A stretch of DNA of 24,804 nt from a virus, in the IMG/VR virus record IMGVR_UViG_3300025417_000087, positions 1 through 24,804 of that record; one strand, written 5' to 3'. This document shows, piece after piece, positions 1,300 through 22,485 of the stretch. The notes under the pieces were generated by a model. The model was not told the origin of the DNA and searched no databases. It was given only the letters and a program-made list of their open reading frames with translations. The translations under genes were made by a program, and so were the position numbers. Positions within the stretch are counted from its first letter, which is position 1. The number at the start of each line of letters is the position of its first letter.

Positions 1300-1659
1300 C
1301 TAGGGGTTTTCCCTAATACGGAAGTCAATTGTTTTATTTCCCTTCCACTTGTTGCATCGTGCGCATAAGGGCTGAAGGTTATTGATGTCAAGCGCGAGTT
1401 CTGGATAGTATTTTCTGGGCTTAACGTGGTCTATATTGATGGGTGAGCGCTTAGTGGCCGACTTGCCACATCTAAGGCATACAGCGCCGTATTTTTTAAT
1501 GGCCTCTTGTCTAAGCGCCCTCCAAGCGTCTGATATCAGGAACATATCGCAGTTGGCCCGCAGGTGCTCCACCAGCTCTGCGTCCGTCATGGACTCAACC
1601 CTCATCTTCCACGCTATCTTGGCCGCCCTACGCTTGAGATACGCTGTGCTCTTGCTCAT
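1300..1659 (-). CDS. HNH endonuclease
   Basis: 119 residues with a clear HNH nuclease fold in the second half: CLRCG (first zinc pair), INIDHVKPRKYYPEL with the catalytic Asp-His, NNLQPLCARCNKWKG with the second zinc pair and the Asn. The N-terminal half is a basic helical region that could contact DNA. Such stand-alone HNH proteins in phages nick or cleave DNA, for example at packaging sites beside terminase genes or as homing enzymes. No terminase is visible here, so the role is open. The ATG (1659-1657) has only a weak GTGGA site. It is followed after 59 bases by the coupled small-gene run, with no obvious terminator between them. It ends with TAG. Confidence 0.88.
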   Translation of the reverse strand: MSKSTAYLKRRAAKIAWKMRVESMTDAELVEHLRANCDMFLISDAWRALRQEAIKKYGAVCLRCGKSATKRSPINIDHVKPRKYYPELALDINNLQPLCARCNKWKGNKTIDFRIRENP

Positions 1660-2782: not shown

Positions 2783-2971
2783 ATGAAAGCATTCCCACAC
2801 ACCACTAATTATGGAATGGATTTAAGAGACTGGTTTGCCGGTCTTGCCATGCAGGGTGAGTTAGCAAGCCAAGATTCAGAAAACCATTGGGACAGTTGTA
2901 ATGTTCTTGCGCATTATGCTTATTCAGTTGCAGACGCCATGATGAAGGCCAGAAATGAAAATAACGAATAA
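2783..2971 (+). CDS. Small conserved phage protein (GMDLRDWFAGLAMQ motif), 62 residues
   Basis: This is the first gene of the plus-strand operon. The core GMDLRDWFAGLAMQGELAS followed by a helix ending YSVADAMMKARNE is a pattern I know from many phage early regions, but no biochemical role is established for it. It looks soluble and helical. The ATG at 2783 is preceded by AGGAGA at ideal spacing. A longer in-frame start at 2696 would cross the divergent promoter and the opposite gene's start, so it is unlikely. The 3' end overlaps the exonuclease gene by 17 bases. Confidence 0.75.
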   Translation: MKAFPHTTNYGMDLRDWFAGLAMQGELASQDSENHWDSCNVLAHYAYSVADAMMKARNENNE

Positions 2972-3833
2972 ATTCAACCTACCCGAGACGTTTGTCAACA
3001 TCATGCAGCGCCCTGCTTACAGCAAGGGCAAAGCACACTTATCCGCTACTGAGCTGATAACTGCCCCCAGGCTTGTACAGCTGCGTAAAGCGCACATGGA
3101 CGAGCTCGAGAGTGATGTGACTGAGAACGTCTGGTCTATCTTTGGGACCGCCATACACGGCATCCTAGAGCATGGTAAGGCCGAGAATCACGTCGTGGAG
3201 GAGCGCATTCATACGAGTGTAGAGGGCTGGAGAATATCCGGCGCTATCGACTTACAGATCATCAACGCAGACGGTTCTGTGACCATCAACGACTACAAGA
3301 CGACCGGTGCTTGGGCCGTTATGAACGAGAAGATTGACTGGGAATACCAATTGAACATCTACGCATGGCTGGTGGAGAAGGTGAAACAAATGCCAGTCAG
3401 GAACATCGAGATCGTGGCCATCATTCGTGATTGGAGCCGCAGAGAGGCCGAGACAAGGCAGAACTATCCCGATGCTCCGATAAAGGTCATACCGGTCAAT
3501 CTGTGGCCTTTTGAGCAGAGAGAGCAGTTTGTGATCGACAGAGTAAAAGAACACTCAAATGCTGAGATGGACGTTGAAATGGGCGAGAATCTACCGCTCT
3601 GCACGCCTGACCAGATGTGGGAGAAACCAACCAGTTACGCCGTTATAAAGGAAGGAAACAAACGCGCCACAAGCGTACATGCGACAGAAGCAGAGGCTCA
3701 AGAGGCACTCAAGACTGTCAAAGGAAAGGCCGAGATCGTGGTCCGGCCGGGAGAAAGAACACGGTGCGAGACGTTCTGCGCCGTTAATAAATTTTGCAAC
3801 CAATACAGAGATTACATAAATGAGCGTACATAA
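2955..3833 (+). CDS. PD-(D/E)XK (RecB/Cas4-like) exonuclease with probable Fe-S cysteines
   Basis: 292 residues. The RecB-family nuclease motifs are all visible: FGTAIHGILE with His68, GAIDL with Asp99, INDYKTT with Asp113 and Lys115, and QLNIY with Gln132/Tyr136. Cys216 together with Cys271, Cys275 and Cys281 near the C-terminus (C-x3-C-x5-C) resembles the four-cysteine 4Fe-4S staple of AddB and Cas4, though the first spacing is one longer than the usual CxxC. Such enzymes resect double-strand DNA ends. The immediately following ERF annealing gene (14-base overlap) and SSB-like gene indicate a phage recombination module, analogous in role to lambda exo/beta. The start has GAAGG about 7 bases upstream. 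Confidence 0.88.
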   Translation: MKITNKFNLPETFVNIMQRPAYSKGKAHLSATELITAPRLVQLRKAHMDELESDVTENVWSIFGTAIHGILEHGKAENHVVEERIHTSVEGWRISGAIDLQIINADGSVTINDYKTTGAWAVMNEKIDWEYQLNIYAWLVEKVKQMPVRNIEIVAIIRDWSRREAETRQNYPDAPIKVIPVNLWPFEQREQFVIDRVKEHSNAEMDVEMGENLPLCTPDQMWEKPTSYAVIKEGNKRATSVHATEAEAQEALKTVKGKAEIVVRPGERTRCETFCAVNKFCNQYRDYINERT

Positions 3834-4554
3834 AAAACTAATGCATGCCCGAATCATGATGATGAAGGCAAAGCTTGAAAAGACTGGTAAAAACAGTTTT
3901 GCAGGCTACAAATACTTCGAGTTGGGGGATTTCCTGCCTGCCGTACAACTGATCTTTGAACAGCTTGGGCTTTGCGGAATCGTGTCCTACGACAACGAAT
4001 ATGCGAGTTTGTGCATCACAGATACGGACGACGGAACAACCATCAGGATCACTTCCCCGATGGCCACAGCCCAGCTCAAAGGCGCACACGATATTCAAAA
4101 CCTGGGTGCTGTTGAGACCTATCAACGTCGCTATCTGTGGATGACAGCGATGGAGCTCGTTGAGAACGATCCTATCGACGCAAGCCCACCGATAGAAAAA
4201 CCCAAAGTGGCATTAATGCCAGAACAACTCCTACATAAAAAGGATTACAAGGTCGAGAACCCCAAACCAACAATACCCAAAGAATCCAAAGAGTTCCCCG
4301 GCTTGAAGGAAATTGGCGTGGCTGAGCCGATGGTTGAATGGCAGATCAACATTAAAGAGGTTAAAGATGGAGGATGGAAAGAAGCCGTTATGCAAGCCAC
4401 CAAAATGACCATAGAGCTCACAAAGACGCCAGAGGACGTGCAGAGTATCTACCGCGTCAATAAAGCGGTTTACGAGCGTTTAAAGACCGAGTTCCCAGTT
4501 GAGTTTACAGAGTTATTAGATTTATTTAAAACAAGAAAGGAAGCACTTAAATGA
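3820..4554 (+). CDS. erf: ERF-family single-strand annealing protein
   Basis: 244 residues. The N-terminal ERF domain is recognisable: KTGKNSFAGYKYFELGDFLP near residues 21-40, a beta-rich middle, and GAVETYQRRYLWMTAMELVE around residue 96-116, followed by an acidic DP. The C-terminal half (from about 125) is a Pro/Lys-rich linker and a helical domain likely used for oligomerisation or partner contact. ERF proteins bind ssDNA and anneal complementary strands during phage recombination and genome circularisation. The gene overlaps the exonuclease by 14 bases and the SSB-like gene by ATGA, so the three are probably made together. The role is inferred from family membership. Confidence 0.85.
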   Translation: MSVHKKLMHARIMMMKAKLEKTGKNSFAGYKYFELGDFLPAVQLIFEQLGLCGIVSYDNEYASLCITDTDDGTTIRITSPMATAQLKGAHDIQNLGAVETYQRRYLWMTAMELVENDPIDASPPIEKPKVALMPEQLLHKKDYKVENPKPTIPKESKEFPGLKEIGVAEPMVEWQINIKEVKDGGWKEAVMQATKMTIELTKTPEDVQSIYRVNKAVYERLKTEFPVEFTELLDLFKTRKEALK

Positions 4555-6076: not shown

Positions 6077-6371
6077 ACCGCTATTGAACGCCTGTCGTGA
6101 GCTGCCTTGCCAGCATTGCGGCACCATCGACGGGACCGTCATTGCGGCTCACTCTAACCAGCTCAGAGACGGCAAAGGACGCGGGCTTAAAGCCCACGAT
6201 TACCGTGTTGCGTCCCTGTGCTACACCTGCCACATGGAATTGGACCAGGGATCAAAACTCTCCAAACAAGAGAGGATTGATATGTTCGAGGAGGCCCATC
6301 GCAAAACGATTGGGCTCCTCTTTGAACGCGGCTTTATCGGTGTTTCTGAATCTGGGCAACCTGATCATTGA
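6063..6371 (+). CDS. DUF1364/YbcO-like HNH-type nuclease
   Basis: 102 residues. CRELPCQHCGTIDGTVIAAH gives the first Cys cluster (11, 16, 19) and His30. GKGRGLKAHDY contains His45-Asp46. ASLCYTCHMELDQG gives Cys53, Cys56 and His57, closing a zinc-bound HNH-like fold. This order matches DUF1364, whose E. coli prophage member YbcO has an HNH-like nuclease structure and lies among recombination genes, as here. A GGAAG site precedes the ATG, and the start overlaps the upstream gene by 14 bases. The 3' end overlaps the convergent giant gene by 38 bases, with no terminator between them. Confidence 0.85.
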   Translation: MYRSRPLLNACRELPCQHCGTIDGTVIAAHSNQLRDGKGRGLKAHDYRVASLCYTCHMELDQGSKLSKQERIDMFEEAHRKTIGLLFERGFIGVSESGQPDH

Positions 6372-9300
6372 ACTGCTTCATCAACATTACTTTTTGAGCT
6401 TCATTTTCCCTGATGTCTTTCATTGGGACTTTGTTTCTCAACATTACTTTTTTGTTTTGATTCATTTGATTGACAGCTTCATTGTATTGTGCGGCTGACG
6501 CATAGAACTGGGCGTCTGGATGAGCATTCATATACTTGCTTGGATCTTGTCCAGATTTTTGAATGTTTGTTATTTCATTCGCATACTTGTTCATCAACGT
6601 GATGTTGTTGTAGAACTTATCTTGAATGGCCGCCTGACTCTTTACATCGCCATAGAAACGTCCGGCAAGAGGAACCCTATACGATGGTAGCGGCTCGCTG
6701 GTAAATGGCGCCTTGAGTGTTTCTGCGGCCTTCATGACCTCACGAACAGCTCCTCCACCCAACTGACCAGCATAGTAATCCAACTCGTCAGCGGTTGGGC
6801 TGATTTTGCCTTTTGTAAACTGCGTTCCAGAAGGCGAGCTGATGTCATTCAAGAAGTGAGCAATAGCTTGACTAATGGCAGTTGCATTTTCTCGGCTACG
6901 CATAAACCCAGGCGTTGGCTTGGTTGCCATGTCCTCTTTGTAAATGGGGCGACCAAAAGCATCTTTGTTTGTGTAAACGGCAGCAATTGGATCAAGAGGT
7001 GTGGGCGTGACTTGCTGTAGGAAACTTCCAGATCCGAGTGGGTTGAAAGCATCCGCAAAAAGAGTCATCACTTGAGCTGTTGCATCTATTCCAGATTTTG
7101 CTCCGGTCATAAGATGCTGTCTGCCCAACACATACTCCGTTGCAATCCTTGCAACACCTGGGAATACATTGAATCCGGGCGGCATTGGGAAAAACAAATA
7201 TTTACCATTTGACAAGGGAAAAATAAAATTCTTGTCTTTGACGTAATCTGGTGGCTCGTCATTGTCAAATCCCATCGCAGCAAGTGCAATGGCTTGTATT
7301 ACGCCAACAATAAAACCGCCGGCCATGATTTTTCTACCGGCAGGACCGCTTAGGACTTGCGCCAATTTAACCGTGCCTTGAACCGCTGGGTTAAAGAATG
7401 CAAACAAAGCTTGCATGTAGGGCGTGTTTTGGCCCTTGCGATTAAAGTTAATGGTAATGTTTTTAGCTAAACTTGCGGCTCTATCTTCGCTCAATCCATT
7501 ATCCAAAGCAACCTTGAACACAGATAAGCGAACGGCATTTTCCATTCCATCGTTGTAATCTGACAAAAGATCAAATACAAAACGCGCGCGCCTCATTGCA
7601 GCACCACGAGTTTGTTTTTTCAATTCTCTTTCAATGATGGTGGTATCTTTACCACTAAACTTGCCTCGAGCAAAAGCTTCCCTAAAGCCAGTTGTTCCTC
7701 CAGCTCGACGCATTCTGTCATACATGTCAGACCAATACGTTGTCAAGGCTTGGTTTTTACGGGCTGCGCGCTCATTGCCAATGATTGCAAACATTGCGGG
7801 AAAGACGTGCGACAAAACTTCTTTTTGTTTGCCAGCCAAAGGTGTATTGGTCAAATTGAAGATTGCGCCTTGAGCATCTCGAGCAAAGTTAATTACACCA
7901 AAGACTGGGTTGAATTGTGTGTTAACCGATGCAAACCATCTGGTCACCATTGCTGTTGTGCCAAGTATTCCGCCCAGCGTTTGAGGGTCAAGATTACTTA
8001 ATGCGGCCGCCATTCTCATGGCTTTTTCATCTTTTGTATTGAAGAAAACGTAGCGATCTTTACCGTTGATACGGACTGGGAATACGTTATCGCTGTTTCT
8101 AAGCGCAGGATTGATTCTGTAAACCACCTTGCCGGTTACTGGATCAATGCTGGGTGTGGTTGGCTCTTGAATAAAGTTTTGCGCAACATTAACAGGAAGA
8201 CCCATGCTAATCAGCTCTTTGTACAAAGCGGTCTTGTCTTTGATTGCATCAGGATTAACTGGCAGCCAAAAGTCTGGGTTGGGATTCTTCAACGCCAATC
8301 CATACAGGGCTCGACCAACTCTTGCTTTTTCAGAGCGAATGATTGCGCTTTCACGTTGCATAGCAATGTTGGCCAAGATGTCTACAACAGTCTTGGTTGA
8401 TCCGTATGCGCGCTTAGAGGCCGATCCCTTGACCTGGAAACCTTTTCCAAGACCAGAACCGTGGTGCTTGAAGTCAAGCTCTTCCTGATCCCTCATTAGT
8501 GGAACATAGTGCTCGTATGCGTTGTTCCAGTTATCAATGACATCTTGTGTCTCAAGACCATTATCAACAAGAATTTGCTGTGTTTTCTTGATGATCTTGT
8601 CAATTTTTTCAGCAACTTTTTTGAGTTTGGTTTCTTTTTTTGGATCAAGATTTGCAAAATAAGCTCTGGCCGCAATGGTACTAATTCCAGATCCAGGGTT
8701 TTGGTTTACATCAGAAAACCTATCATTGATCTTTGCAATAGCATCGTTGCGCTCTTCGGCGGTGCGATTGTGCAAATACTGTTCAATTTCTGGAATCGTA
8801 AGGTTTTCCTTGATTGCATCAGAAATAACTGGGCTAAGCTCATCATCCAAAAAGTCTTTAACGGCATTTGCTGTACGGCCGTGATACAGCTCTTCTTTCA
8901 TATAAACATCAAACGCATCATCAATTGCGCCAATGCTTTTCTTGATTGCCGCTTGCACTTTTCTTGTGTCAACATGTTTGTCCACAATGGCGTGGTCAAT
9001 CGTGTCAATCAAATGGCCAATTTTTGTTTCCGGCTCAAGTTCCCAGCGAGAATTTCCAACTGGCTTGCCGTAAATATTTCGTTTGGGAGGGGGAAGACCT
9101 GGGAATAATTGCCCTTGTGGTCCTATAGGAGTTCCTCCACCTCCTTGATTGACTTGGCCGGGGCCACCAGCTTGTCCAGCTGTTGGTACAGGGAGTAGGC
9201 TTCCTTGTCTCCCTCCTGCTTGTACAGCTGAAGGTTGGTTGACACCCACCCCTTTAGCTGGTCCAGATGTACTTGAGGCTGAGGATTTGCCGTAATCTTC

Positions 9301-12300
9301 AAGAGACTTTGAAGTGTTCTGTGTAGTAGATTTTCCATATGCTTCCTTCATTGCAGCAAATGCGGATTCATGACGAGTCAAGGTATCCAATATGGCATCG
9401 CGATAATAATCAAGCATACCACTATCGGCAAGATAGTTGGCAACTTTTATCATCTGATTGTTATGCCCAACGCCGTGGTCCATGTCTGCCGTGTGGGCAA
9501 TCTCATGGATCATTGTAATGAGGATGGTCTCCCTGGCGCTAAACAAGCTTTTCTGTCCAAAATCATAGAACGGGTTAACAAACACGCCCTTATATGGAAC
9601 TCTGATGTGTACACCACCATACTTTTTATCAATTGAAATACCGCCAAAGAAAAGATTCTCAGGCTTGAGCATGTCGTATCTGTATAGGCCGCTCTTGGAA
9701 AGATCTTCTTTCATCTCAACCAACAATGTGCCCAGCTCTGCAAAGAACTTTTCTGGATCGCCGTACTGCCTACCAATCTCAAGATAATCAACGTTTGTGT
9801 TGTTATGAAAGACTGGCAGCTTTGGATCCTGCTTCATTTCGAGCATGAAATCGGCCATTTTTGGCGCTTCTTTTTCAGCCTTGAAGGTGGATTCTTTCTT
9901 TTGATCTTCTGGCTTAACCAACTCTTTGCCGGTTTTTGTCTTAACAAAACCATCGCTCACATAAATTTCTTTTGGTACAGCTGGTGGTTCAAATTTCTTT
10001 TCGTTTGCACCGCTTCTTGTATCAAAAGCTTTTTTGAGTTTTTTAGATGCATCTGCCACATCTGCGCCAGCCTCAATACGAGGCATTGAAACAATGCCCT
10101 TGAAGTTTTCTTGCAGGTCTTTGGCTTCATTGCCCATTGCCACTTGTTTTAAGTATTGGCCAAGAGACTTGATGTCTTTCTCTATGCGCGCCTTGAAACG
10201 CTCGCGGCTGTTTTCAAATGGATAATCTGGGTGTTTCGCATCTACATCTGGTTTGACGTTGATCAGAATATCATAGGGAATGACCTCTGAATCATTTAAA
10301 GCGAAGTCATTCTTAAATTGATATACGCCGCTGGACAAAACTTTGTGATTTGGCCTATTTGTATATCCGCTTGATTCTTTTCTTTCAACACCAAAATAAA
10401 CATCTGCATCACCCCACGAGAAGTGAACAGTTGTTAACTTGGGCATTTTGTCTTGATTGAAATTAACACCAATTGGTAACGTTTCTTTTTCACCATTGAA
10501 ATCAACGTTAACTTCGACAGGACCAACAAGCGGTTGAGTCAATGCGTCAAGTGATTCTATGCTCCAAGGAAACCAAATGCCTTTTTGTTCGCCAGTTTTA
10601 GGATCGGTGTAATTTTCTGGAATGGTAACTGTTACAGATGTGCCATGCTCTTTTTCTGGAGCTTTGGTTTTCTTGATATCAAACTTGCTATCAGCAATAG
10701 CCTGAGAATCAGTGTCAACGGTGGTCCTAATTCCATCTCTAACGGTATCGAGCTTGAGTCTTTCAGAGCCCAACATAAAGCCCATCTTGGCTAAACCCAA
10801 TCCGCCACTACGTTCTTTTGGATCAAGATCAGACTTATCAGATCCGGCCACAGTAAAAAACGCATCTTTCACAATACTTGGCGTCATGCCTCGAGCATTA
10901 TCTTTAACAGTAATTGTTCTATCAGCGGCATTGACAACAATGTCAATCTTTCCAACTTTAACAATGCCTAATTTGACTGCCGCCTTGGACGCATCAAAAG
11001 CGTTTTGCAGCAATTCTTTTACAGATACGTCTGCTATATTGGCTGCATACATGTTGGCGCCCAGGAGCTTGATTAAGCCGCCCATATCGGCGTTTAACTT
11101 ACCCTTTTCTGTGCCCGTCTCTTTATCGGATGCTTTAGACGCAGAAGCTTTTGGCTCTCTACCGGGTCTAAATTCAAACGATAGAGATTTTGCTGGCACA
11201 CGCTGGTAAGCTTTTGGATTTGTTGCGCTATCTGGCTTAAACTTAACGTAATCACCTTCGACGCCAAGAACAATACCTGGAACTGTTCCAAGTGTTACAT
11301 GATCTCCAGGCAAAAATTCTTGAGATTTTTTATCTACAGCATCATGTATTTTGTCATTCAAAGCTTCCATTTCGGCGGGCTTTGCTTCTACTTTGGGCTG
11401 GCCAAACAAATCCTCTTGACCACGAGCAGCTGCTTGATCGGCGGGCCTATCGCTACCGGTTAAAGTAAAGTCACTAACGCCTTCGTTTGCCTTGGCGCGA
11501 GCTTCTGCTTCACGCTCGGCTTTGGCGCGTTCTTCTTTAGCGCGCTCCTTGGCCCTTACTTCATCGGGGGTTTCGCTTTTGAGTGCCAGTTCATTTTCAC
11601 CTGGTTCAGAAACTCCAGCCTCGTGTTCGGGCTCATAGACCTGATTAGCTTGATCAGCTTTTCTTTGCTCATCGGCGGCTTCTTCAATGAGGAGATTGAC
11701 ATCTTTTAACTCCAGTTGTTCTTTTACTAAATCTTCTAATTCTTTGATGTTGCCTTCGATGTAATCAATATCGCCGGTCAGTCTTTCAATTTCTTGCTCG
11801 GCATCATACGTCATGTATTTGCCGGACTGCAATTTTTCTATGATGTATTGCTCTGACTGTTGCGGGTCAAAAGTAGGAGACTTGTAGCGCATATCATGAG
11901 GCAAATAGTCTTCTATTGCGCTACCGCTTACAATATCAACAAGCCTTCCTTCATCATTTGGGCTTTTGAGCTGTAGAAAATGGTTTTCAGGGCTTATGTT
12001 TTTAATTTCAGATAAACTCAGAGATTTTCTAAGAGCGCCAAAAAGACCGCCTTCTTTTTGCAAACGAGCTTTTTTTCTTCGTGCAACTTCAAGATCTTTA
12101 TTTCTTTCCTCCAAATCCATTTGCTCTTGTGTTTTTGGATATGGCAGATCTTCAATTGCGGGACGAACTTTACGAACTTGTGGTTTGGCTTCTTTTTTCT
12201 TGATGTCACCCAATAATTTTCGCGCGTCTTTTACAGCCTTGTCGTGCTCGATCAAAGCTTTGTTCAATTCTTTTTGCGCAGCTTGAATAGCTCTGTTTTG

Positions 12301-14565
12301 TTCGCCAGGTGTTTTTTTGTTTTTTCTGGATGATTCCTCGGCAACAATCTGACCTTTTTCATTTATGGCATTTGACGCATTATTCAGTTTTTCAATCGCA
12401 TTTTGATGTGCGTCAGGATCTTTTGCTGTTGGCAAGGCCTCAGCAAGCCTTTGAACGTATCCATTTGCTGTATTGATGGCGCCAACCGCAGTTTTAGATA
12501 TGCCCTCCAAAACAGGCAAAGGTGTAATAGCAGATTCAGAAACGCCAATTTTGGGCTTAACTTCTGGAATTTCTTCTTTTGGAACAACCAACAATTGATC
12601 GGGTGTAAATCCTTTGAGATCATCAATGTTTTTGATTAATACAGGATTTTCTTCATCTTGCTCATGGAATCCATAAACGGTATCACCATCACTGTGAGCT
12701 TTTTCTGCTTCTTGTTTTGTTTGAACAGGCTCTCCCTTATCCGCAATTTCCTCAAGAGTATGAGGAGCAGGTTGGGCAGCGGGCGCAGCTTGAGGCTCAG
12801 TGCGAGCAATAGTTTGGTTGGCAGTATCCGTAGATGATGTCGCATTGGTAATTTCTTTGCCATTCAACTCATCCAACATGGCTTGAGTGTCTTGGCTATT
12901 AGATGGAGGAGCAACATCTCCTTCTTTTGGCTCTTGCAAAACTTTCTCGGCGGCTTCCTGTTTTTCAATGTTTGCAGCCGTTAAAGGCGGTCTCTGCATC
13001 TCTTCTGGAGCAAACTGAGCATATGCATACGAGTTGGGATTTAAACGCGCTACAACGTCTTTATTGATGCCCTCTTGTGTAAATTCAGCGTTGGCAACAT
13101 CTTTTTTGATGGCGTTTGCAACAGCAAGATTGCGACCAAACTCAGTTTTCTCGAGCTGTCTTTGAGCCGCTTGCGTGCCTTTTGTGGCGCCAATAGCAGC
13201 ACCGGCAGTAGCGCCAGACTGAATAACTGTTTGTCTCAAGGTCTCAGCAAGCTGTTCATAAAGATCAGCCATACTTGGATTTTTGTTTGTGCCTATTCCT
13301 GGCAATATATCAATCCCATATTGGGTGGCAGTTGTTGCAAGCTCAGTAGGAAGCTCATGAGCAATCGCATTCATAAAATAGGCGGCAACGTCGTTTGCAG
13401 TAACTGGCTTTTTGTTTGGGGCTTCTTTGAACAATGTTTTCAATCCAGCCAATGACTTAGGCATACCAAATTGCTCAAACATAACTTCTGCGGCCGCTTG
13501 CAAACCAGCTCTTGCTGATGCTGCTACCGGGTCAAGACCAGCTTGCCTGCCTTCGCCATAAGCTTGGCCATACTGCTGAACGCCAGCAAACGCCAACATT
13601 GGTGCGGCAGTACCGGTAATTGTTCCAATTGCCATAACTGGAGCTTGAGTAGCAAGCGTGGCAATTGCATGTTGAGCCGACTTTTCAAATAGGCTTGGTC
13701 CAGTTGGCACATTGGCGCCTTTCTCGGACTCAACCCTTTGAGCGCCCATCAGATCTTTGGACATTTGGGTATCGCCAATCAGGTCAGCATAGTTTTGCAT
13801 CAAGCCCATGCCTGTTTGCGCAAGCTGTGATTTAGCTTCAGCGCCAACTCGAGTTAAGAATCCAGCCCCTTCAAGTTCTTTTGCCTGTTCTTGGACAGCT
13901 TTATCAGCTTGTTCACCAACAATATCAGGAGTCATTTGTTGAAAATCAGGACGAGATTGGCCTCTTAATGCGTCTAGTCTGGCTTGATTGATAGAATCTT
14001 GAGCGTTAAGCCCTTGACTTGCATAGCGATCAGCTTGAGTTTCAAGTCTTAAATCAGTAGCAAACTTTGCTTTTTCAGGCTGCAAGTCCATTGCTTTATA
14101 GCGGTCAGAAATGATCTTTGCCGCTCTGCCGCCAACAGTATTTTCTTGCTGAGTCAATCTATCAATGGTCTGCTGCCTTTTATCTAAATCCATTGCATCC
14201 AAATTCTTTTGCATGTTTGCAATAAAGTTTGGATTAAGACCTTGCAGGTTTTCTTGTGGCAGCTGAGTGCCAGCCAATACGCTTTGATATTCTGGCCTTT
14301 GAACATTGGCTATGGCAGACGCAAAATCATCCCCCATAGGGCTGCCAAGACTTGGTTCGGGCGCTTGTTGAACAGGCTGCGCTGGTACTTTTACCAATTG
14401 CTTGTCTGGCACGGAAATTGCCGAGTCATTTGCAGGCGTTTCTTTGGGCAATAAATCCTGCAAATTGCTGGAAATCAATTGCATCGCTTGATCAGGCGTT
14501 GTGCCTTCAGGGACCTCAAAGCGACCTATGCGACCGTCAGGCAATTCAAATCTTGCGATTGGCAT
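6334..14565 (-). CDS. Giant phage polyvalent (ejected) protein: GHKL ATPase, HExxH and LPD38-like regions
   Basis: 2743 residues, one unbroken frame. The N-terminus (FELPDGRIGRFEVPEGTTPD) is a tag common at the start of phage internal/tail proteins. Hydrophobic Ala/Gly-rich helices follow around 300-335, and charged coiled-coil segments lie up to about 1030. An SH3-like stretch (PGDHVTLGTVPGIVLGVEGD) comes before a GHKL/Bergerat ATPase at about 1150-1330: N-box ELLQNAFDAS (Glu1184, Asn1188), DNARGM (Asp1222), GGLGLAKMGF (1254 on). A zinc-metallopeptidase-like HEIAH sits at 1687-1691, and a Gly/Pro-rich linker is near 1770-1830. The C-terminal third includes FNRKGQNTPYMQALFAFFNP (2374 on), typical of the LPD38 region of large polyvalent proteins, then a membrane-like segment near 2415-2432. 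Such proteins are thought to be packaged and injected to modify the host. AGGA precedes the ATG. It is the last gene of the late operon. Confidence 0.9.
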   Translation of the reverse strand: MPIARFELPDGRIGRFEVPEGTTPDQAMQLISSNLQDLLPKETPANDSAISVPDKQLVKVPAQPVQQAPEPSLGSPMGDDFASAIANVQRPEYQSVLAGTQLPQENLQGLNPNFIANMQKNLDAMDLDKRQQTIDRLTQQENTVGGRAAKIISDRYKAMDLQPEKAKFATDLRLETQADRYASQGLNAQDSINQARLDALRGQSRPDFQQMTPDIVGEQADKAVQEQAKELEGAGFLTRVGAEAKSQLAQTGMGLMQNYADLIGDTQMSKDLMGAQRVESEKGANVPTGPSLFEKSAQHAIATLATQAPVMAIGTITGTAAPMLAFAGVQQYGQAYGEGRQAGLDPVAASARAGLQAAAEVMFEQFGMPKSLAGLKTLFKEAPNKKPVTANDVAAYFMNAIAHELPTELATTATQYGIDILPGIGTNKNPSMADLYEQLAETLRQTVIQSGATAGAAIGATKGTQAAQRQLEKTEFGRNLAVANAIKKDVANAEFTQEGINKDVVARLNPNSYAYAQFAPEEMQRPPLTAANIEKQEAAEKVLQEPKEGDVAPPSNSQDTQAMLDELNGKEITNATSSTDTANQTIARTEPQAAPAAQPAPHTLEEIADKGEPVQTKQEAEKAHSDGDTVYGFHEQDEENPVLIKNIDDLKGFTPDQLLVVPKEEIPEVKPKIGVSESAITPLPVLEGISKTAVGAINTANGYVQRLAEALPTAKDPDAHQNAIEKLNNASNAINEKGQIVAEESSRKNKKTPGEQNRAIQAAQKELNKALIEHDKAVKDARKLLGDIKKKEAKPQVRKVRPAIEDLPYPKTQEQMDLEERNKDLEVARRKKARLQKEGGLFGALRKSLSLSEIKNISPENHFLQLKSPNDEGRLVDIVSGSAIEDYLPHDMRYKSPTFDPQQSEQYIIEKLQSGKYMTYDAEQEIERLTGDIDYIEGNIKELEDLVKEQLELKDVNLLIEEAADEQRKADQANQVYEPEHEAGVSEPGENELALKSETPDEVRAKERAKEERAKAEREAEARAKANEGVSDFTLTGSDRPADQAAARGQEDLFGQPKVEAKPAEMEALNDKIHDAVDKKSQEFLPGDHVTLGTVPGIVLGVEGDYVKFKPDSATNPKAYQRVPAKSLSFEFRPGREPKASASKASDKETGTEKGKLNADMGGLIKLLGANMYAANIADVSVKELLQNAFDASKAAVKLGIVKVGKIDIVVNAADRTITVKDNARGMTPSIVKDAFFTVAGSDKSDLDPKERSGGLGLAKMGFMLGSERLKLDTVRDGIRTTVDTDSQAIADSKFDIKKTKAPEKEHGTSVTVTIPENYTDPKTGEQKGIWFPWSIESLDALTQPLVGPVEVNVDFNGEKETLPIGVNFNQDKMPKLTTVHFSWGDADVYFGVERKESSGYTNRPNHKVLSSGVYQFKNDFALNDSEVIPYDILINVKPDVDAKHPDYPFENSRERFKARIEKDIKSLGQYLKQVAMGNEAKDLQENFKGIVSMPRIEAGADVADASKKLKKAFDTRSGANEKKFEPPAVPKEIYVSDGFVKTKTGKELVKPEDQKKESTFKAEKEAPKMADFMLEMKQDPKLPVFHNNTNVDYLEIGRQYGDPEKFFAELGTLLVEMKEDLSKSGLYRYDMLKPENLFFGGISIDKKYGGVHIRVPYKGVFVNPFYDFGQKSLFSARETILITMIHEIAHTADMDHGVGHNNQMIKVANYLADSGMLDYYRDAILDTLTRHESAFAAMKEAYGKSTTQNTSKSLEDYGKSSASSTSGPAKGVGVNQPSAVQAGGRQGSLLPVPTAGQAGGPGQVNQGGGGTPIGPQGQLFPGLPPPKRNIYGKPVGNSRWELEPETKIGHLIDTIDHAIVDKHVDTRKVQAAIKKSIGAIDDAFDVYMKEELYHGRTANAVKDFLDDELSPVISDAIKENLTIPEIEQYLHNRTAEERNDAIAKINDRFSDVNQNPGSGISTIAARAYFANLDPKKETKLKKVAEKIDKIIKKTQQILVDNGLETQDVIDNWNNAYEHYVPLMRDQEELDFKHHGSGLGKGFQVKGSASKRAYGSTKTVVDILANIAMQRESAIIRSEKARVGRALYGLALKNPNPDFWLPVNPDAIKDKTALYKELISMGLPVNVAQNFIQEPTTPSIDPVTGKVVYRINPALRNSDNVFPVRINGKDRYVFFNTKDEKAMRMAAALSNLDPQTLGGILGTTAMVTRWFASVNTQFNPVFGVINFARDAQGAIFNLTNTPLAGKQKEVLSHVFPAMFAIIGNERAARKNQALTTYWSDMYDRMRRAGGTTGFREAFARGKFSGKDTTIIERELKKQTRGAAMRRARFVFDLLSDYNDGMENAVRLSVFKVALDNGLSEDRAASLAKNITINFNRKGQNTPYMQALFAFFNPAVQGTVKLAQVLSGPAGRKIMAGGFIVGVIQAIALAAMGFDNDEPPDYVKDKNFIFPLSNGKYLFFPMPPGFNVFPGVARIATEYVLGRQHLMTGAKSGIDATAQVMTLFADAFNPLGSGSFLQQVTPTPLDPIAAVYTNKDAFGRPIYKEDMATKPTPGFMRSRENATAISQAIAHFLNDISSPSGTQFTKGKISPTADELDYYAGQLGGGAVREVMKAAETLKAPFTSEPLPSYRVPLAGRFYGDVKSQAAIQDKFYNNITLMNKYANEITNIQKSGQDPSKYMNAHPDAQFYASAAQYNEAVNQMNQNKKVMLRNKVPMKDIRENEAQKVMLMKQFNDQVAQIQKHR

Positions 14566-14574
14566 GGCTTATCC

Positions 14575-16014
14575 TTATTGTTCAAAGCCTAGAAATTTTA
14601 CACCTTTTGGATTGTTTGGATTCATTCCAGGTGGCAATGGGCCTCTAGGTGTTGATCCAGGAACGCCAGATGGCAACGGCGCTCCGGGAACAGGCAATGG
14701 TGTTACTGGTGCAGAAGCTGGAGTGGAAGGCCCACCCAACCATGAAGGCCAATGCCATTCATCATCCTGACCGCCCGCAACACTGAATGTTGGAGTTGGC
14801 TCTGGAGGAAGATCCAATTTGTATTTATTGTAATATTTTTTAGTATTTTCATACATCGCTTTCTCATATTTGTCGTACATTTCTGTACCTGGCGAGTACA
14901 TTCCTTGAGCTTTTTTCAGCGCAAGATTGGCTGCCGCTGCTTCTGTTTCAGCCATATGTTGGGCTTTTAGAGCGTCTTTTTCTTGTTGGGTTGGTATTCT
15001 TGTTTCATACCACTTCCCTTCTTTTTCTTGTAAGACGCCAAGAGTTTGAGCTTTTAAAGCATTAGTGTCAGCTTCTTGTTTTTTAATTAAGTTTTCTTCA
15101 GCTTTGGCGTTGAGCTCTCCTGCCTTAGCTTGGGATGTGCTGAGTGCAGAAATGCCTGCAAGATCAAGATGTTTTCCGGCCATCATTGAAGATTGAGCGG
15201 CATTTTGCAAAGCAATTTGATCATGTACGTCACCTTTAAGTGCGGCATTTTTGGCTTGTTCGGCCAGGAATTGCGAATGATCAAGAGCGTCTTGAGAGTC
15301 CTGAATGGCTTTTTTGCCAGAAACATAAGCTGCAACGCCTTCTTTTCCACCGGCGGCGATGTTCTGAAAGGCATAAGGAGACGTGCCGCCCAACATTCCA
15401 AGACCAGCTTGCAACAATGCCATTTGTGTATTGGTGGCTTTTCTGTCTTCTATGTCAGCTTGTTTGGCTTGCAGCTTTTGAATGTATGGATCAAACAATT
15501 GAGCGGTTTTAGCCTGCTCTGGGGCGGCGGCCGCCTCAGCTCCAGCTCTTAATGTGCCTGTGTATTGGTTGATTTCTTCGGCAGTTGGATTGGTTGGCAA
15601 ATCAGCTTGCGTCAAGGGAGTATAGCCATAAGCACTACCGCCTTTATCAAAATGGTGTTCACCGGTAATACCGCCGCCTGCCATCTTTTGGAGATTGTCA
15701 GCTGGCAAAGTACCAATACCCTGTTCTTCAGGCAGCGCTTGCGGAGCGGCTTGAGGAGCGGACTGGGGCATACCTTGTTGCGGCATAGGACGCTGGGGCA
15801 TCATTTGCGCCAAGTCCTGTTGAACTACTGGCGGCTGTGCTTGGCCTGTTTGTTTAGCCATTTGCTGAGCGCGCATGTTCTTTCTGTCCTGGCTTTCTTG
15901 GAAGGCAAGAGGAAAAATGTAAGGGTCGTTTTGATGCATCTGTGCATACTGCGCCAACTGCGCATCAGACATCATGCGCAATGTAGAAGTTACATTATGT
16001 GGTGCTAAACTCAT
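14575..16014 (-). CDS. Internal virion/tail-associated structural protein, 479 residues
   Basis: A low-complexity Ala/Gln/Lys-rich protein. The N-terminal region is Gln/Pro/Met-rich (QQDLAQMMPQRPMPQQGMPQ). A Gly motif LQKMAGGGITGEHHFDKGG lies at about 107-125. Residues about 160-390 are long helices with coiled-coil character. The C-terminal 70 residues are Pro-rich. This composition and the position next to the polyvalent gene fit internal virion proteins of podovirus-type phages, which are ejected or line the DNA channel; the function is inferred. The ATG forms a one-base TAATG overlap with the upstream gene and has GGAGG 5 bases away. The Gly motif recurs in the 938-residue protein. Confidence 0.75.
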   Translation of the reverse strand: MSLAPHNVTSTLRMMSDAQLAQYAQMHQNDPYIFPLAFQESQDRKNMRAQQMAKQTGQAQPPVVQQDLAQMMPQRPMPQQGMPQSAPQAAPQALPEEQGIGTLPADNLQKMAGGGITGEHHFDKGGSAYGYTPLTQADLPTNPTAEEINQYTGTLRAGAEAAAAPEQAKTAQLFDPYIQKLQAKQADIEDRKATNTQMALLQAGLGMLGGTSPYAFQNIAAGGKEGVAAYVSGKKAIQDSQDALDHSQFLAEQAKNAALKGDVHDQIALQNAAQSSMMAGKHLDLAGISALSTSQAKAGELNAKAEENLIKKQEADTNALKAQTLGVLQEKEGKWYETRIPTQQEKDALKAQHMAETEAAAANLALKKAQGMYSPGTEMYDKYEKAMYENTKKYYNKYKLDLPPEPTPTFSVAGGQDDEWHWPSWLGGPSTPASAPVTPLPVPGAPLPSGVPGSTPRGPLPPGMNPNNPKGVKFLGFEQ

Positions 16015-17006
16015 TATGCCTCCATCTTAGCTAAAGCCAAGTCTGCAAGTCCATTGGATTTCTTTTCTTTGATTGCGCCACCTTTGGCACTAGATTTAAA
16101 TGCGCCCAATCCTGCCGCAGTCAAGCCCAAACCTGCTACTTGTGAAAGCATACTTGGAGGCGCTTGATAGACAGATGCAGACTGCTGAGTCATCGGCAAA
16201 CCGCGAATCAAGTTGGACATGAAGTTCAACTGCTGATAAGGATAGTTCTGAGCGTTTAAGAAGTTCTGCTGTTGGGTATTATCAATGTTCTGAATTTGCT
16301 GTTGTTGCTGACCGCCCAGCTGATTCTGCAAACCAATGATGCCCAGGTTTTGGTTGTACTGCTGGTTGCCTAGCGTACCCATCGTGTTGGCGCTTTGCAA
16401 AGCTGTATTCAAGCCTTGCATGCCTAAGTTAGCACCAAACTGTTGCTGCTGAGCATTAAGTTGGTTTTGGGTGTTGTACTGCTGTTGAGCGTTTTGGAAC
16501 GCGTTGTACTGGTTCTGACCCAGTTGTGTTTGTAGGGCAGCGTTACCTTGCGCTCTTGCAATTGCGTCTCTGCCACCACCAAAAGCGCCCGCCTGCGTAG
16601 CCTGTGCCTGTTGCGCTTGTTGAGCAATAGCAGCGTTGTTTCTTGCAGATGCATTCATGACATCCAAATATGGATTCATCATTTGCTGTGCATTATCAGC
16701 CGTGAAATTAGACGGCTGGAATGTGTATTGTGCGTTCAGCCCACCAAGCCCAGCCATACCTGCCAGCGCCGTAGCCTGCCCCAACTGAGGGGATGTTTGC
16801 ATCAGTGAAGCATTGTTAAACGCAGACTGCTGTAAAGGCGTAAACTGCGCAACCTGCTCACCCATGTATTGCTGATATGGGTTGGTGTTGATGTTGGTCA
16901 AAGACGCTGCATTACTGAGCATCTGTTGCGCATAAGGAGCAATCTCGGGAGCAAAGCCCGTTTGATATTCGGTTATCGAGGAAGGAGTTCCGGTCGTCGT
17001 GGTCAT
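16014..17006 (-). CDS. Gln/Asn-rich virion protein, 330 residues
   Basis: The N-terminus (TGFAPEIAPYAQQMLSNAAS) and VAQFTPLQQSAFNNASLMQ are a pattern I know from phage structural operons. The middle (about 125-275) is extremely Gln/Asn/Ala-rich with many short QQxYN-type units and includes GAFGGGRDAIARAQGNAALQ. The C-terminus has a Gly/Ala hydrophobic stretch (SQVAGLGLTAAGLGAF) and then KGGAIKEKKSNGLADLALAK. Long helices likely assemble in the tail or internal core. Its role in DNA ejection is inferred from context only. AGGA lies 7 bases before the ATG. It lies 9 bases after the 938-residue gene and overlaps the next start by one base. Confidence 0.75.
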   Translation of the reverse strand: MTTTTGTPSSITEYQTGFAPEIAPYAQQMLSNAASLTNINTNPYQQYMGEQVAQFTPLQQSAFNNASLMQTSPQLGQATALAGMAGLGGLNAQYTFQPSNFTADNAQQMMNPYLDVMNASARNNAAIAQQAQQAQATQAGAFGGGRDAIARAQGNAALQTQLGQNQYNAFQNAQQQYNTQNQLNAQQQQFGANLGMQGLNTALQSANTMGTLGNQQYNQNLGIIGLQNQLGGQQQQQIQNIDNTQQQNFLNAQNYPYQQLNFMSNLIRGLPMTQQSASVYQAPPSMLSQVAGLGLTAAGLGAFKSSAKGGAIKEKKSNGLADLALAKMEA

Positions 17007-17015
17007 GATATTTCC

Positions 17016-19864: not shown

Positions 19865-20188
19865 TTAGCCCACAATCCAGCTAGTACCATTTGAGTACAC
19901 CGGCACCATTACAGTACCCCCGCCAACAACAGCAGACCCAAAAGCAGGACTTGCTGCGTCCGACACATAGGTTTTAGTCCCCATATTGGCAGTTGACGCT
20001 GTTGGTAACGTTGCCACCGTGTAGATTGTTGCATTGGTGTTTGCGGTGGTAATTAACGTGTTTAACGCATCACTTAGCTGATTAAAGTACAGCCTCAATA
20101 TGTTGTTCAATTGCGCTTGATATTGCTGGTCAAACGCAGGTTGCGCTAACGGCAAGCTCGGTGGGCTGGTGTTTACTATTTTTGACAT
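19865..20188 (-). CDS. Small conserved virion-associated protein, 107 residues
   Basis: The N-terminal half FDQQYQAQLNNILRLYFNQL is an amphipathic helix. The C-terminal half is beta-rich with VATLPTASTANMGTKTYVSD and GGGTVMVPVYSNGTSWIVG. This arrangement is common directly after gp10-like tail genes in phages, and the beta part resembles the repeat ends found in tail-fibre or head-decoration proteins. The precise function is not established. It overlaps the stop of the gp10-like gene by one base (TAATG), so the two are probably made together. A 32-base gap separates it from the next gene. Confidence 0.75.
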   Translation of the reverse strand: MSKIVNTSPPSLPLAQPAFDQQYQAQLNNILRLYFNQLSDALNTLITTANTNATIYTVATLPTASTANMGTKTYVSDAASPAFGSAVVGGGTVMVPVYSNGTSWIVG

Positions 20189-22485
20189 TATCTGCGTCCA
20201 TCCGCTCTGGCATCAAATCGAGGAGCACCAAGCTGCCAGGCAGTATTGAGCTGGTTAGACTCCATCTTAAAGATGAACTGTCGGCCCCTGATGCGGGTAT
20301 ACACATAGCCGGTAAATGTCTCAGGATTGCCGTTAATATTAACACTGTAAACAGAATTGGGGTACGTTTGGCTGATACCACCACCCGAATTATTCAAAGA
20401 AGAAATGGTCATCGTCACAACAGGGTTTGTTGCGGATGAATTCTCAAACGTCAGATCAGGTAATACTTTAGATATAAAAGCAAAATGGTCTCCAGTTGGG
20501 TCTGAAATATCAAACTCAGATGAGGCTATGTACGCATCAATGGGAGCTGGTGTTCCGTTTGCGTTGTCGTTCAATCCGTACTCATGATCTACAAGATTGT
20601 TATAATAAGTGGCCGCCTCTGGGTATGGGCGCAGGCCTGAATCAATCCAAGCAGTTCTGGCCATTGTGCCGTAGTACCATACTTTTTCTAAGTAGTTGTA
20701 GACAACATAACTGTCGATTGTATTGCTGTTGGCTGAACAATAGAACCACCAAACCTCATTGAATGCCTCATTGGTGGACGCAAAGAACTGTTGGTTTTGG
20801 CTTGTGTTAATATTTGAAAACACATATCTACGCAGGTCACATTGAAGCGTTTGCACAGTACCGTTGTAGTAATAAAACTTATCGAATCCCATCCAATAAA
20901 CAACTCCTGATGCCAAAGCCATGCAGTTTTGGCCTGCAATAGACAGGTTATCACCCAACAACTGAGAACGCCAAATATAAGGAGCACCGATGTATTGCAC
21001 AGAATATGCACTTGAATCGGTCAAAACCAAAATCTCTTGGCGCGTCTGAATAGCAGAAACAATCCTAGAACCGTGCGACAGCCGTATGAATCCAGCAGAG
21101 TTGGTGGCATCTGGCGTCCAGTTATAAACGTCCTCTTGGTTTGACCAACGGATAAGCAAAGGATCAGGAAGAGATGACCCTAAATCATTGGCGCCAAATG
21201 CAAACACAAACCTTGATGTGTCTGAGACCATGAGGAAACTCTGCACAACTGGCACGTCCACAATCAAAGAAACGTAGGCGCTATAAGTCAGGGCGGGCGT
21301 AAGTTTACCTACATTCGCTGAAGACAAGACGCCAGTAATTGGCAAAACAAGCGGAGATATTGATGCGGTCATCGTACCGACGCTACCGACCGCTGTATTA
21401 CTTGTAAGATTAAATCCTGGTAAAGTTCCCGCAACCCCGCTTGCACCTACGCCCGTGAGAACAGGAGCTGCGGTAATGCTAGCTGTCATTGATCCAACAC
21501 TACCCGTGGCCTTTACCCCAGTCATATTGGGAGCACTGGTAGAGTTTACCAAATTACCGTTTGAATCAAGTAGATTAAAATTTAATCCGTTGACGTTGTA
21601 AACATAGTATGTCGTGTTGGCAGACATGCCTGGGGGCAAATTACCGCCAAACTGAAGCGCAGCACCTTCTGTATAAAGTACTGTTGATGTAACAACAATT
21701 GGAATGCCAGCTGTAATGGTAACGTTACCACCAAGAGAATTAAGAGCCGATCCTCGAGTTGCCAGTCCGCTACTTGCCGTCCAGTAATATATCGTTCCGC
21801 CATTGGGTGCAAAAAGTAAATTCTCACCCCAGTTCATTTGGCTCCACAAACGAAGACTGTTTGTAGCTGACGTGTTGCCCCAGCTGCCATTACCCCATGT
21901 ACCAGCGCCCCATCCCTGTAGGGGTGTTTCAATCGCTGGGCCAACACTTACTTGGTAAGCCGCAGATACAGAAGAGCCGCCTGTTGTGCCAGATGCAACA
22001 GAAGTTGCCGTGGTAATTGTGTAATTGTTAGTGTCAATGACTGAAGCTACTTGATACTGCCCGTTTAAAAGCGAAGCATATGCGCCAGAAACGCCACTAA
22101 AAGTTACAAAATCGTTTGCCGATGCGCCATGAGATGGGGAATAAACCTGTACGGTGGTTGTACCATTGCCTGTAAATGGATCTGTAGGTAGGGTTACGGT
22201 TGATCGGATTGGAGTAATATCGTTGTAGTTACCGCCGTTTTCAATGTAAAACTTTAGGTTTGTTCCTACGCCCATCAAGTTAAAACCATTAAGCGTCACC
22301 CAGTTCCACAATGAACGGCAAACGCCTTGATAGGTATAACTTGAGATCTGGTTCCAGCCGCCAATTACCTCCGCACTACCTTGGCGAAAACGCACTTTGT
22401 CGCACTCGTACCAACCACCTTCGGTCATGTAACGGGTGTTCTCGCGATTGACGCCGGGTCTGAATGTAGGCTTAATAAGTGGCAT
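20188..22485 (-). CDS. P22 gp10-like packaged-DNA stabilisation / tail hub protein
   Basis: 765 residues. The N-terminus PTFRPGVNRENTRYMTEGGW then VRFRQGSAEVIGGWN is the hallmark of the phage-stabilisation (P22 gp10-like) family. The second half (about 420-600) has beta-propeller-like repeats, for example RLSHGSRIVSAIQTRQEILV, TDSSAYSVQYIGAPYIW, GDNLSIAGQNCMALASGVVY, YWMGFDKFYYYNGTVQTL. Proteins of this family plug the portal after packaging and hold the tail needle. Residues about 112-170 and 240-400 look like inserted beta (Ig-like/bacteriophage surface) modules, including two copies of GSVGxMTASI about 40 residues apart, which is unusual for the family. The ribosome site is weak. The start lies 12 bases after the endolysin stop. 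Confidence 0.85.
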   Translation of the reverse strand: MPLIKPTFRPGVNRENTRYMTEGGWYECDKVRFRQGSAEVIGGWNQISSYTYQGVCRSLWNWVTLNGFNLMGVGTNLKFYIENGGNYNDITPIRSTVTLPTDPFTGNGTTTVQVYSPSHGASANDFVTFSGVSGAYASLLNGQYQVASVIDTNNYTITTATSVASGTTGGSSVSAAYQVSVGPAIETPLQGWGAGTWGNGSWGNTSATNSLRLWSQMNWGENLLFAPNGGTIYYWTASSGLATRGSALNSLGGNVTITAGIPIVVTSTVLYTEGAALQFGGNLPPGMSANTTYYVYNVNGLNFNLLDSNGNLVNSTSAPNMTGVKATGSVGSMTASITAAPVLTGVGASGVAGTLPGFNLTSNTAVGSVGTMTASISPLVLPITGVLSSANVGKLTPALTYSAYVSLIVDVPVVQSFLMVSDTSRFVFAFGANDLGSSLPDPLLIRWSNQEDVYNWTPDATNSAGFIRLSHGSRIVSAIQTRQEILVLTDSSAYSVQYIGAPYIWRSQLLGDNLSIAGQNCMALASGVVYWMGFDKFYYYNGTVQTLQCDLRRYVFSNINTSQNQQFFASTNEAFNEVWWFYCSANSNTIDSYVVYNYLEKVWYYGTMARTAWIDSGLRPYPEAATYYNNLVDHEYGLNDNANGTPAPIDAYIASSEFDISDPTGDHFAFISKVLPDLTFENSSATNPVVTMTISSLNNSGGGISQTYPNSVYSVNINGNPETFTGYVYTRIRGRQFIFKMESNQLNTAWQLGAPRFDARADGRR

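Follow-up and report, generated by a model that had tools for sequence, protein, structure and literature searches.

An Hsp90-type ATPase and a zincin-like domain joined in an exchangeable module of giant polyvalent phage proteins

Background

Of the early weapons of phages, injected polyvalent proteins rank with the least understood. Those of the LPD38 class (Iyer et al. 2017, PMC5512222), such as gp69 of phage JC1 and the giants of Traversvirus phi296, Vibrio phage 252E42.2 and Methanosarcina virus MetMV, are encoded toward the end of the run of virion genes and combine varied, unrelated effector domains with a C-terminal region of about 900 residues. Here, we describe a protein of this kind encoded in IMG/VR record IMGVR_UViG_3300025417_000087, a viral fragment of 24.8 kb (the window, 24,804 nucleotides, is the whole stretch that was analyzed). 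It shares the C-terminal region, the giant size, the effector domains and the genomic position of the LPD38 proteins, and differs from the five named giants that were checked, in which the module reported here was not found: an ATPase of the Hsp90 type followed by a zincin-like metallopeptidase domain.

Parts of this chain resemble other described systems. Members of the Hsp90 family (HtpG, TRAP1, Grp94; PRK14083) have the same N-terminal ATPase and middle domain with an SRE-type arginine, but their lid reads GQFGVGF and not GGxGxAK, and here the middle domain precedes a zincin instead of a recognized Hsp90 C-terminal domain. RIIA of T4-type phages is also a GHKL protein, although it is a stand-alone gene. 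The WLM/YgjP-like zincins (Wss1, YgjP) show the HExxHxxxxxH spacing and weak profile matches, whereas the third ligand of the module is H or E and its zincin was always found fused to an ATPase of the Hsp90 type. The usual polyvalent zincin, MPTase-PolyVal (PF18818), has the order of the zincin core in common with the module, but it matches few module members, and many of their proteins bear a separate second HExxH.

The text of Iyer et al. 2017 contains no GHKL, Hsp90 or HATPase, and the jumbo-phage paper of Iyer 2021 names GHKL only for topoisomerase and RIIA. Within the open-access literature, with subscription papers outside its scope, our survey returned nothing linking GHKL or HATPase with polyvalent proteins in the present sense. 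As far as we found, polyvalent proteins in which a protease is constantly joined to an ATPase of the Hsp90 type have no prior description.

Organization of the Hsp90-type ATPase

The giant gene is a single unbroken open reading frame (ORF) with an ATG start, and all the GHKL boxes that a sequence-only reading had placed in it are exact (Table 1). The N, G1 and G2 boxes are followed by the GT motif GTSVTV (residues 1308–1313), and these motifs together with a Bergerat fold place the domain in the GHKL superfamily. Both HATPase_c_3 (1.4e-8) and HATPase_c (4.5e-6) of Pfam match it over their gathering scores.

Several lines of evidence point to the Hsp90 branch. The HSP90-family model of NCBIfam matches the module of the giant protein at 1.2e-13 and 48 of 49 relatives, against seven for the Topo VI model and two for MutL. 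A PDB profile search with the profile of the 49 relatives retrieved Hsp90 chains at up to 4.9e-13, and all of the 60 best rows listed were Hsp90. The AlphaFold2 (AF2) model of the module was built from the alignment of these relatives and replaced a first run on 13 close sequences, which had a predicted local distance difference test (pLDDT) value of 55; it reached a pLDDT of 86.6 and a predicted template modeling (pTM) score of 0.81. Foldseek ranked Hsp90 first for this model (E 8.5e-13), and in VIA-align the alignment with Hsp90, which spans both the N-terminal and the middle domain, scored a Z of 21, while Topo VI-B and GyrB reached about 20. The Bergerat fold, on which the earlier reading had staked its claim beforehand, was thus upheld by the model and by both structural comparisons.

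That reading had offered an HSP90/MORC/MutL-like ATPase; of these names, the sequence models favor the first, with the MutL model matching the two relatives mentioned, although Topo VI-B and GyrB come almost as close in fold. A role in remodeling host chromatin was dropped, because the sequence models point to Hsp90 and the domain scores as Hsp90/RIIA-like with no pointer to MORC-like action on chromatin. Two elements can be added to the earlier description: an Hsp90-type middle domain with NSRERF at residues 1452–1457, and a third metal ligand, H1697, at HExxH+10.

The N-terminal ATPase and a middle domain with the catalytic arginine are both present, but the GHKL part is no Hsp90 equivalog, because its scores lie far under the curated cut-offs (50.5 bits against 455 for PRK14083 and 25.1 against 371 for HtpG). 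A small domain directly upstream of the ATPase, possibly SH3-like, is conserved in most members.

The similarity to RIIA suggests another function, in which the GHKL unit acts as T4 RIIA does but is delivered with the DNA rather than made early. Iyer 2021 terms RIIA a poorly understood counter-defense GHKL protein. The rIIA genes are the closest GHKL genes in named phages (tblastn 2e-4; A7 profile 1.3e-15; hhalign 1e-8), the RIIA PHROGs match two to three distant members, and RIIA has a PSRE motif. However, HtpG matches equally well in hhalign (4.1e-9) and the Hsp90 models match nearly all members, whereas the similarity to RIIA spans only about 125–160 residues and is confined to the ATP site. 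In addition, the one RIIA examined has no HExxH, and RIIA is encoded by its own gene, which pairs with RIIB; the GHKL unit described here forms part of a giant chain and is accompanied by a zincin. We consider this function quite improbable. Among the proteins of the window, none matched the RIIA family phrog_2979.

The zincin-like domain

The HEIAH sequence (residues 1687–1691) begins 433 residues past the G2 box, in line with the distance of about 430 first noted, and is the sole HExxH in the giant protein, where 0.03 would be expected from composition. The family pattern is HExxHxxxxx[H/E], with position 1697 being H in 65 and E in 10 of 76 sequences. In the AF2 model, the region is composed of a helix, three strands, the HExxH helix and a further helix, most of these blocks having a pLDDT above 90. 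HExxH, third ligand and core order all agree with a zincin, and the assignment made from motif and conservation is firm. The match list of VIA was filled by the ATPase part, and the call is drawn from the motif, the order of secondary structures and weak profile matches.

Kinship of this predicted domain with the WLM and YgjP families is a lead. When the family models were run on 35 module members at E<=0.5, WLM matched 11 (best 1.1e-4) and YgjP-like seven (best 2e-4), and Wss1p appeared in the PDB profile search at 0.0024, alongside chance dynein matches of similar score. The identity of a classical polyvalent MPTase was considered for the HEIAH domain and is unsupported, since PF18818 gave no match for the giant protein and only weak ones in two of the 35 members (best 0.058).

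Distribution, conservation and exchange of the module

In successive IMG/VR scans, all three parts (ATPase, middle domain and zincin) were recovered jointly from about 66 contigs, at identities from 99% down to ~20%, in ORFs of about 1,700–5,100 residues save where the contig ends. Every locus retrieved with the zincin by itself also held the ATPase, provided that the contig extends to it. The ATPase and the zincin form one module and were not found apart.

Over 76 module sequences, E1184, N1188, D1191, D1222, G1226, G1254, G1257, K1260 and R1454 are conserved in 100%. HExxH is present in 75; the exception, L130, has HEAAH just outside the aligned stretch. The ratio of nonsynonymous to synonymous substitution (dN/dS) is 0.04–0.07 between close relatives. 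Both sites are under strong selection and were in no case found separately, which speaks for a coupled function. That the domain is dead or structural and retained as a mere spacer has very little probability, as catalytic residues are invariant down to 20% identity and the dN/dS is about 0.05.

The module is widespread in environmental phages yet was not found in about 50,700 named ones: tblastn against 50,697 named phage records gave none at 1e-5, the rIIA match at 2e-4 described above being the only weaker one, and three divergent modules gave none at 1e-8. It was likewise not found as a host gene in 397 other Pseudomonadota genomes at 1e-25, and in plasmids the sole match was an unrelated ATP-binding protein. 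In BFVD, the unnamed viral protein A0A516L4L2 matches the whole module at 5e-44, so the module is present in UniProt without a name. Two contigs of metagenome-assembled genomes, L044 (Neisseriaceae) and L045 (Woesearchaeota), contain a divergent module (44–45%) and are probably mis-binned viral contigs, since the surrounding genes look like those of phages.

The ATPase-zincin module has been swapped as a cassette among polyvalent proteins. Grouping the flanks of 49 representatives gave 13 clusters on the C-terminal side and 20 on the N-terminal side, mutually unmatched at the threshold used, and the place of the module along the chain ranges from close to the N-terminus to close to the C-terminus. 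Distant modules have the same C-terminal cluster as near ones (L127 with the giant protein, L131 with L099, and L132 with L102), which means that module and flank have different histories. The DNA of the giant gene is 90–100% identical to that of L002 at residues 1051–1900, against 39–78% before residue 950 and 56–90% after 1900; with L004, it comes closest to identity in the first 550 residues.

The accompanying domains include LPD38, LPD39, ART-PolyVal, GNAT, SAP, H-NS, a transglycosylase (SLT), RadC, InPase, ddrB-ParB, MutS_I, LPD1, LPD5 and LPD22, and a DarB-like antirestriction PHROG was also matched. This mix bears the marks of polyvalent proteins as given by Iyer et al. 2017.

The linker upstream of the module recurs as the pattern FTLTGS[ND]RPAD..AA..GQ..LF in L002, at residues 945 and 1134 on the two sides of a GNAT domain, and in L040 at residue 1111. 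Such a duplication would suit a docking point for cassettes or a processing site.

Proposed function

The best explanation, to which we give a probability of about 45% as a whole, is that the giant protein is a polyvalent protein carried inside the virion of a tailed phage, probably a short-tailed one, and that its module is an injected ATP-gated protease, with an Hsp90-type clamp and a WLM/YgjP-like zincin, acting on host proteins. The gating, the protease activity and the host targets are what we infer from the domains and their coupling. The core unit would be an ATP-driven clamp of the Hsp90 type, made of the ATPase and the middle domain with its catalytic-type arginine, hard-wired to a zinc protease. 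It would stay inactive in the capsid and, once injected, would bind ATP and close its clamp on a client protein. The tethered protease would then cut this client, which the clamp would hand over to it or open up.

The clients would most likely be host proteins encountered early in entry, for instance those of defense or those that bind the entering DNA. Two observations favor this: the unit is exchanged between proteins carrying different effectors, and over half of the relatives have a second, different zincin to which self-processing could fall. This second, different HExxH lies outside the module in 29 of the 49 relatives, which together have 32 extra HExxH against 1.0 expected (one of the 32 being the module site of L130). 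Its sequence is LHEIVHAATE among others, for example at residue 1671 of L102 and residue 1838 of L105.

Self-processing is the explanation against which this has chiefly to be weighed. In it, the ATP of the host cytoplasm would be the signal of arrival: closure of the clamp would set the zincin to cleave the linkers of the polyvalent chain, freeing the other domains. Such a role was proposed for polyvalent MPTases by Iyer et al. 2017, and the giant protein has only the HExxH of the module, with long low-complexity linkers on both sides of it. Against this, the second HExxH of the relatives could do the job, the usual polyvalent MPTase model is as weak as described, the module varies in its position along the chain, and no cleavage site was identified. 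We regard self-processing as less likely than action on host proteins, though it is the main rival.

Several points weigh against an ATP-gated protease acting on host proteins. The giant protein has no second zincin, which is what makes self-processing a serious rival here. Its own match to WLM is weak, at 12.6 bits under a Pfam cut-off of 26. Finally, the fold matches to Hsp90 stop near model residue 430, where the zincin follows, and no Hsp90 C-terminal dimerization domain was recognized there, no dedicated search having been made; closure of the clamp would then need another dimer contact.

In a broader and tentative view, the module may represent a new class of ATP-dependent protease, in which an Hsp90-type clamp drives a WLM-like zincin as an exchangeable cassette of injected virion proteins, switched by host ATP and destroying host proteins or freeing other effectors at the start of infection. 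As a defined unit of 600 residues with known catalytic residues, the module lends itself to expression and assay, and it could reveal how phages time the action of their proteins to arrival in the cell.

The LPD38 region, packaging and ejection

The giant protein unites LPD38, ATPase and zincin in one chain, as expected of a polyvalent protein, and the LPD38 assignment first made from the sequence was borne out by Pfam. The region was also said to end the protein; this is correct for the longer homologous region (residues 1860–2739), but about 110 residues lie between the Pfam match and the end of the protein. By tblastn, homologues of the C-terminal 880 residues occur in giants of Traversvirus, Vibrio podoviruses, the Methanosarcina virus MetMV and Burkholderia phages. 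MetMV (L005, MK170447), the listed host of which is archaeal, encodes an LPD38-type giant with 36% identity to the giant protein over 888 aa.

Packaging and injection of the giant protein are likely, as we infer from homology, because the related JC1 gp69 is found in virions and because genes of a putative ejection protein and of a virion protein are adjacent. CsCl-purified virions of JC1 yielded 51 unique peptides of gp69 (4515 aa, LPD38 at 4195–4401; PMC9144972).

The same neighborhood would suit a chaperone or an aid to ejection, in which the Hsp90-like part refolds the protein chain, or pulls it or the DNA, once the tail has been passed, while cargo that is jammed or misfolded is trimmed by the zincin. 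The N-terminal and middle domains of Hsp90 type and the transglycosylase domain that two relatives carry in the same chain as the module are consistent with such a role. It is nevertheless unlikely, since the five other LPD38-class giants are without the module, which is not generally required for entry, and an invariant zincin would be needless for a chaperone alone. In L116, a transglycosylase at residues 67–161 begins a giant with the module and LPD38; this architecture fits an ejected, wall-crossing protein.

Gene neighborhood

Table 1. Features of the giant gene and of its neighbors in the window
Feature	Residues	Position	Strand	Basis
Giant polyvalent protein, 2743 aa		6334..14565	-	ORF; Pfam LPD38 and HATPase matches; homologues in IMG/VR and named phages
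Inter-domain linker FTLTGSDRPADQAAARGQEDLFGQP	1033-1057	11395..11469	-	Duplicated either side of inserted GNAT domain in L002
Small conserved domain directly upstream of ATPase	1083-1140	11146..11319	-	Conserved in alignment A4; hidden Markov model match in 51/76, absent from most distant proteins
Bergerat/GHKL ATP-binding domain, Hsp90 type	1151-1320	10606..11115	-	Pfam, NCBIfam HSP90 family, PDB profile search, AF2 with Foldseek/VIA, invariance in 76 sequences
N box ELLQN (E1184...N1188; KELLQNAFDAS = 1183-1193)	1184-1188	11002..11016	-	Motif, conservation
G1 box DNARGM	1222-1227	10885..10902	-	Motif, conservation
G2/lid box GGLGLAK	1254-1260	10786..10806	-	Motif, conservation
Middle (S5-type) domain	1345-1490	10096..10533	-	AF2 model aligned with Hsp90 N-terminal and middle domains across model residues 10-428, Z 21
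NSRERF, equivalent of Hsp90 middle-domain SRE motif	1452-1457	10195..10212	-	R1454 is Arg in 76/76; HtpG NVSRE seen in L145; rIIA PSRE
Zincin-like metallopeptidase domain, WLM/YgjP-like	1585-1750	9316..9813	-	Secondary-structure order in model; weak WLM/YgjP/Wss1p profile matches
Predicted metal site HEIAHTADMDH (H1687, E1688, H1691, H1697)	1687-1697	9475..9507	-	Motif; third ligand at HExxH+10
Gly/Gln/Pro-rich linker, module to C-terminal part	1764-1830	9076..9276	-	Sequence
LPD38-type C-terminal region, about 900 aa	1860-2739	6349..8988	-	phrog_14770 6.5e-164; 131 phage records by tblastn; JC1 gp69 2.4e-43
Pfam LPD38	2436-2633	6667..7260	-	2.5e-34
Putative DNA ejection protein, 330 aa		16014..17006	-	phrog_4287 7.6e-10; near giant gene in L004, L003, L105, L099, L101, L106
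Virion structural protein, 765 aa, same gene run as giant gene		20188..22485	-	phrog_3287 1.2e-59

An endolysin is also among the same-strand neighbors of the giant gene. The 330-aa ejection-like protein and a low-complexity protein of 938 aa (16014–19832) keep their place close to the giant gene in several relatives, including those in which the C-terminus of the giant protein is unrelated. Elsewhere in the window, an HNH endonuclease (1300–1659, minus strand), an exonuclease (2955–3833, plus strand) and an Erf-like annealing protein (3820–4554, plus strand) make up an ordinary phage recombination set.

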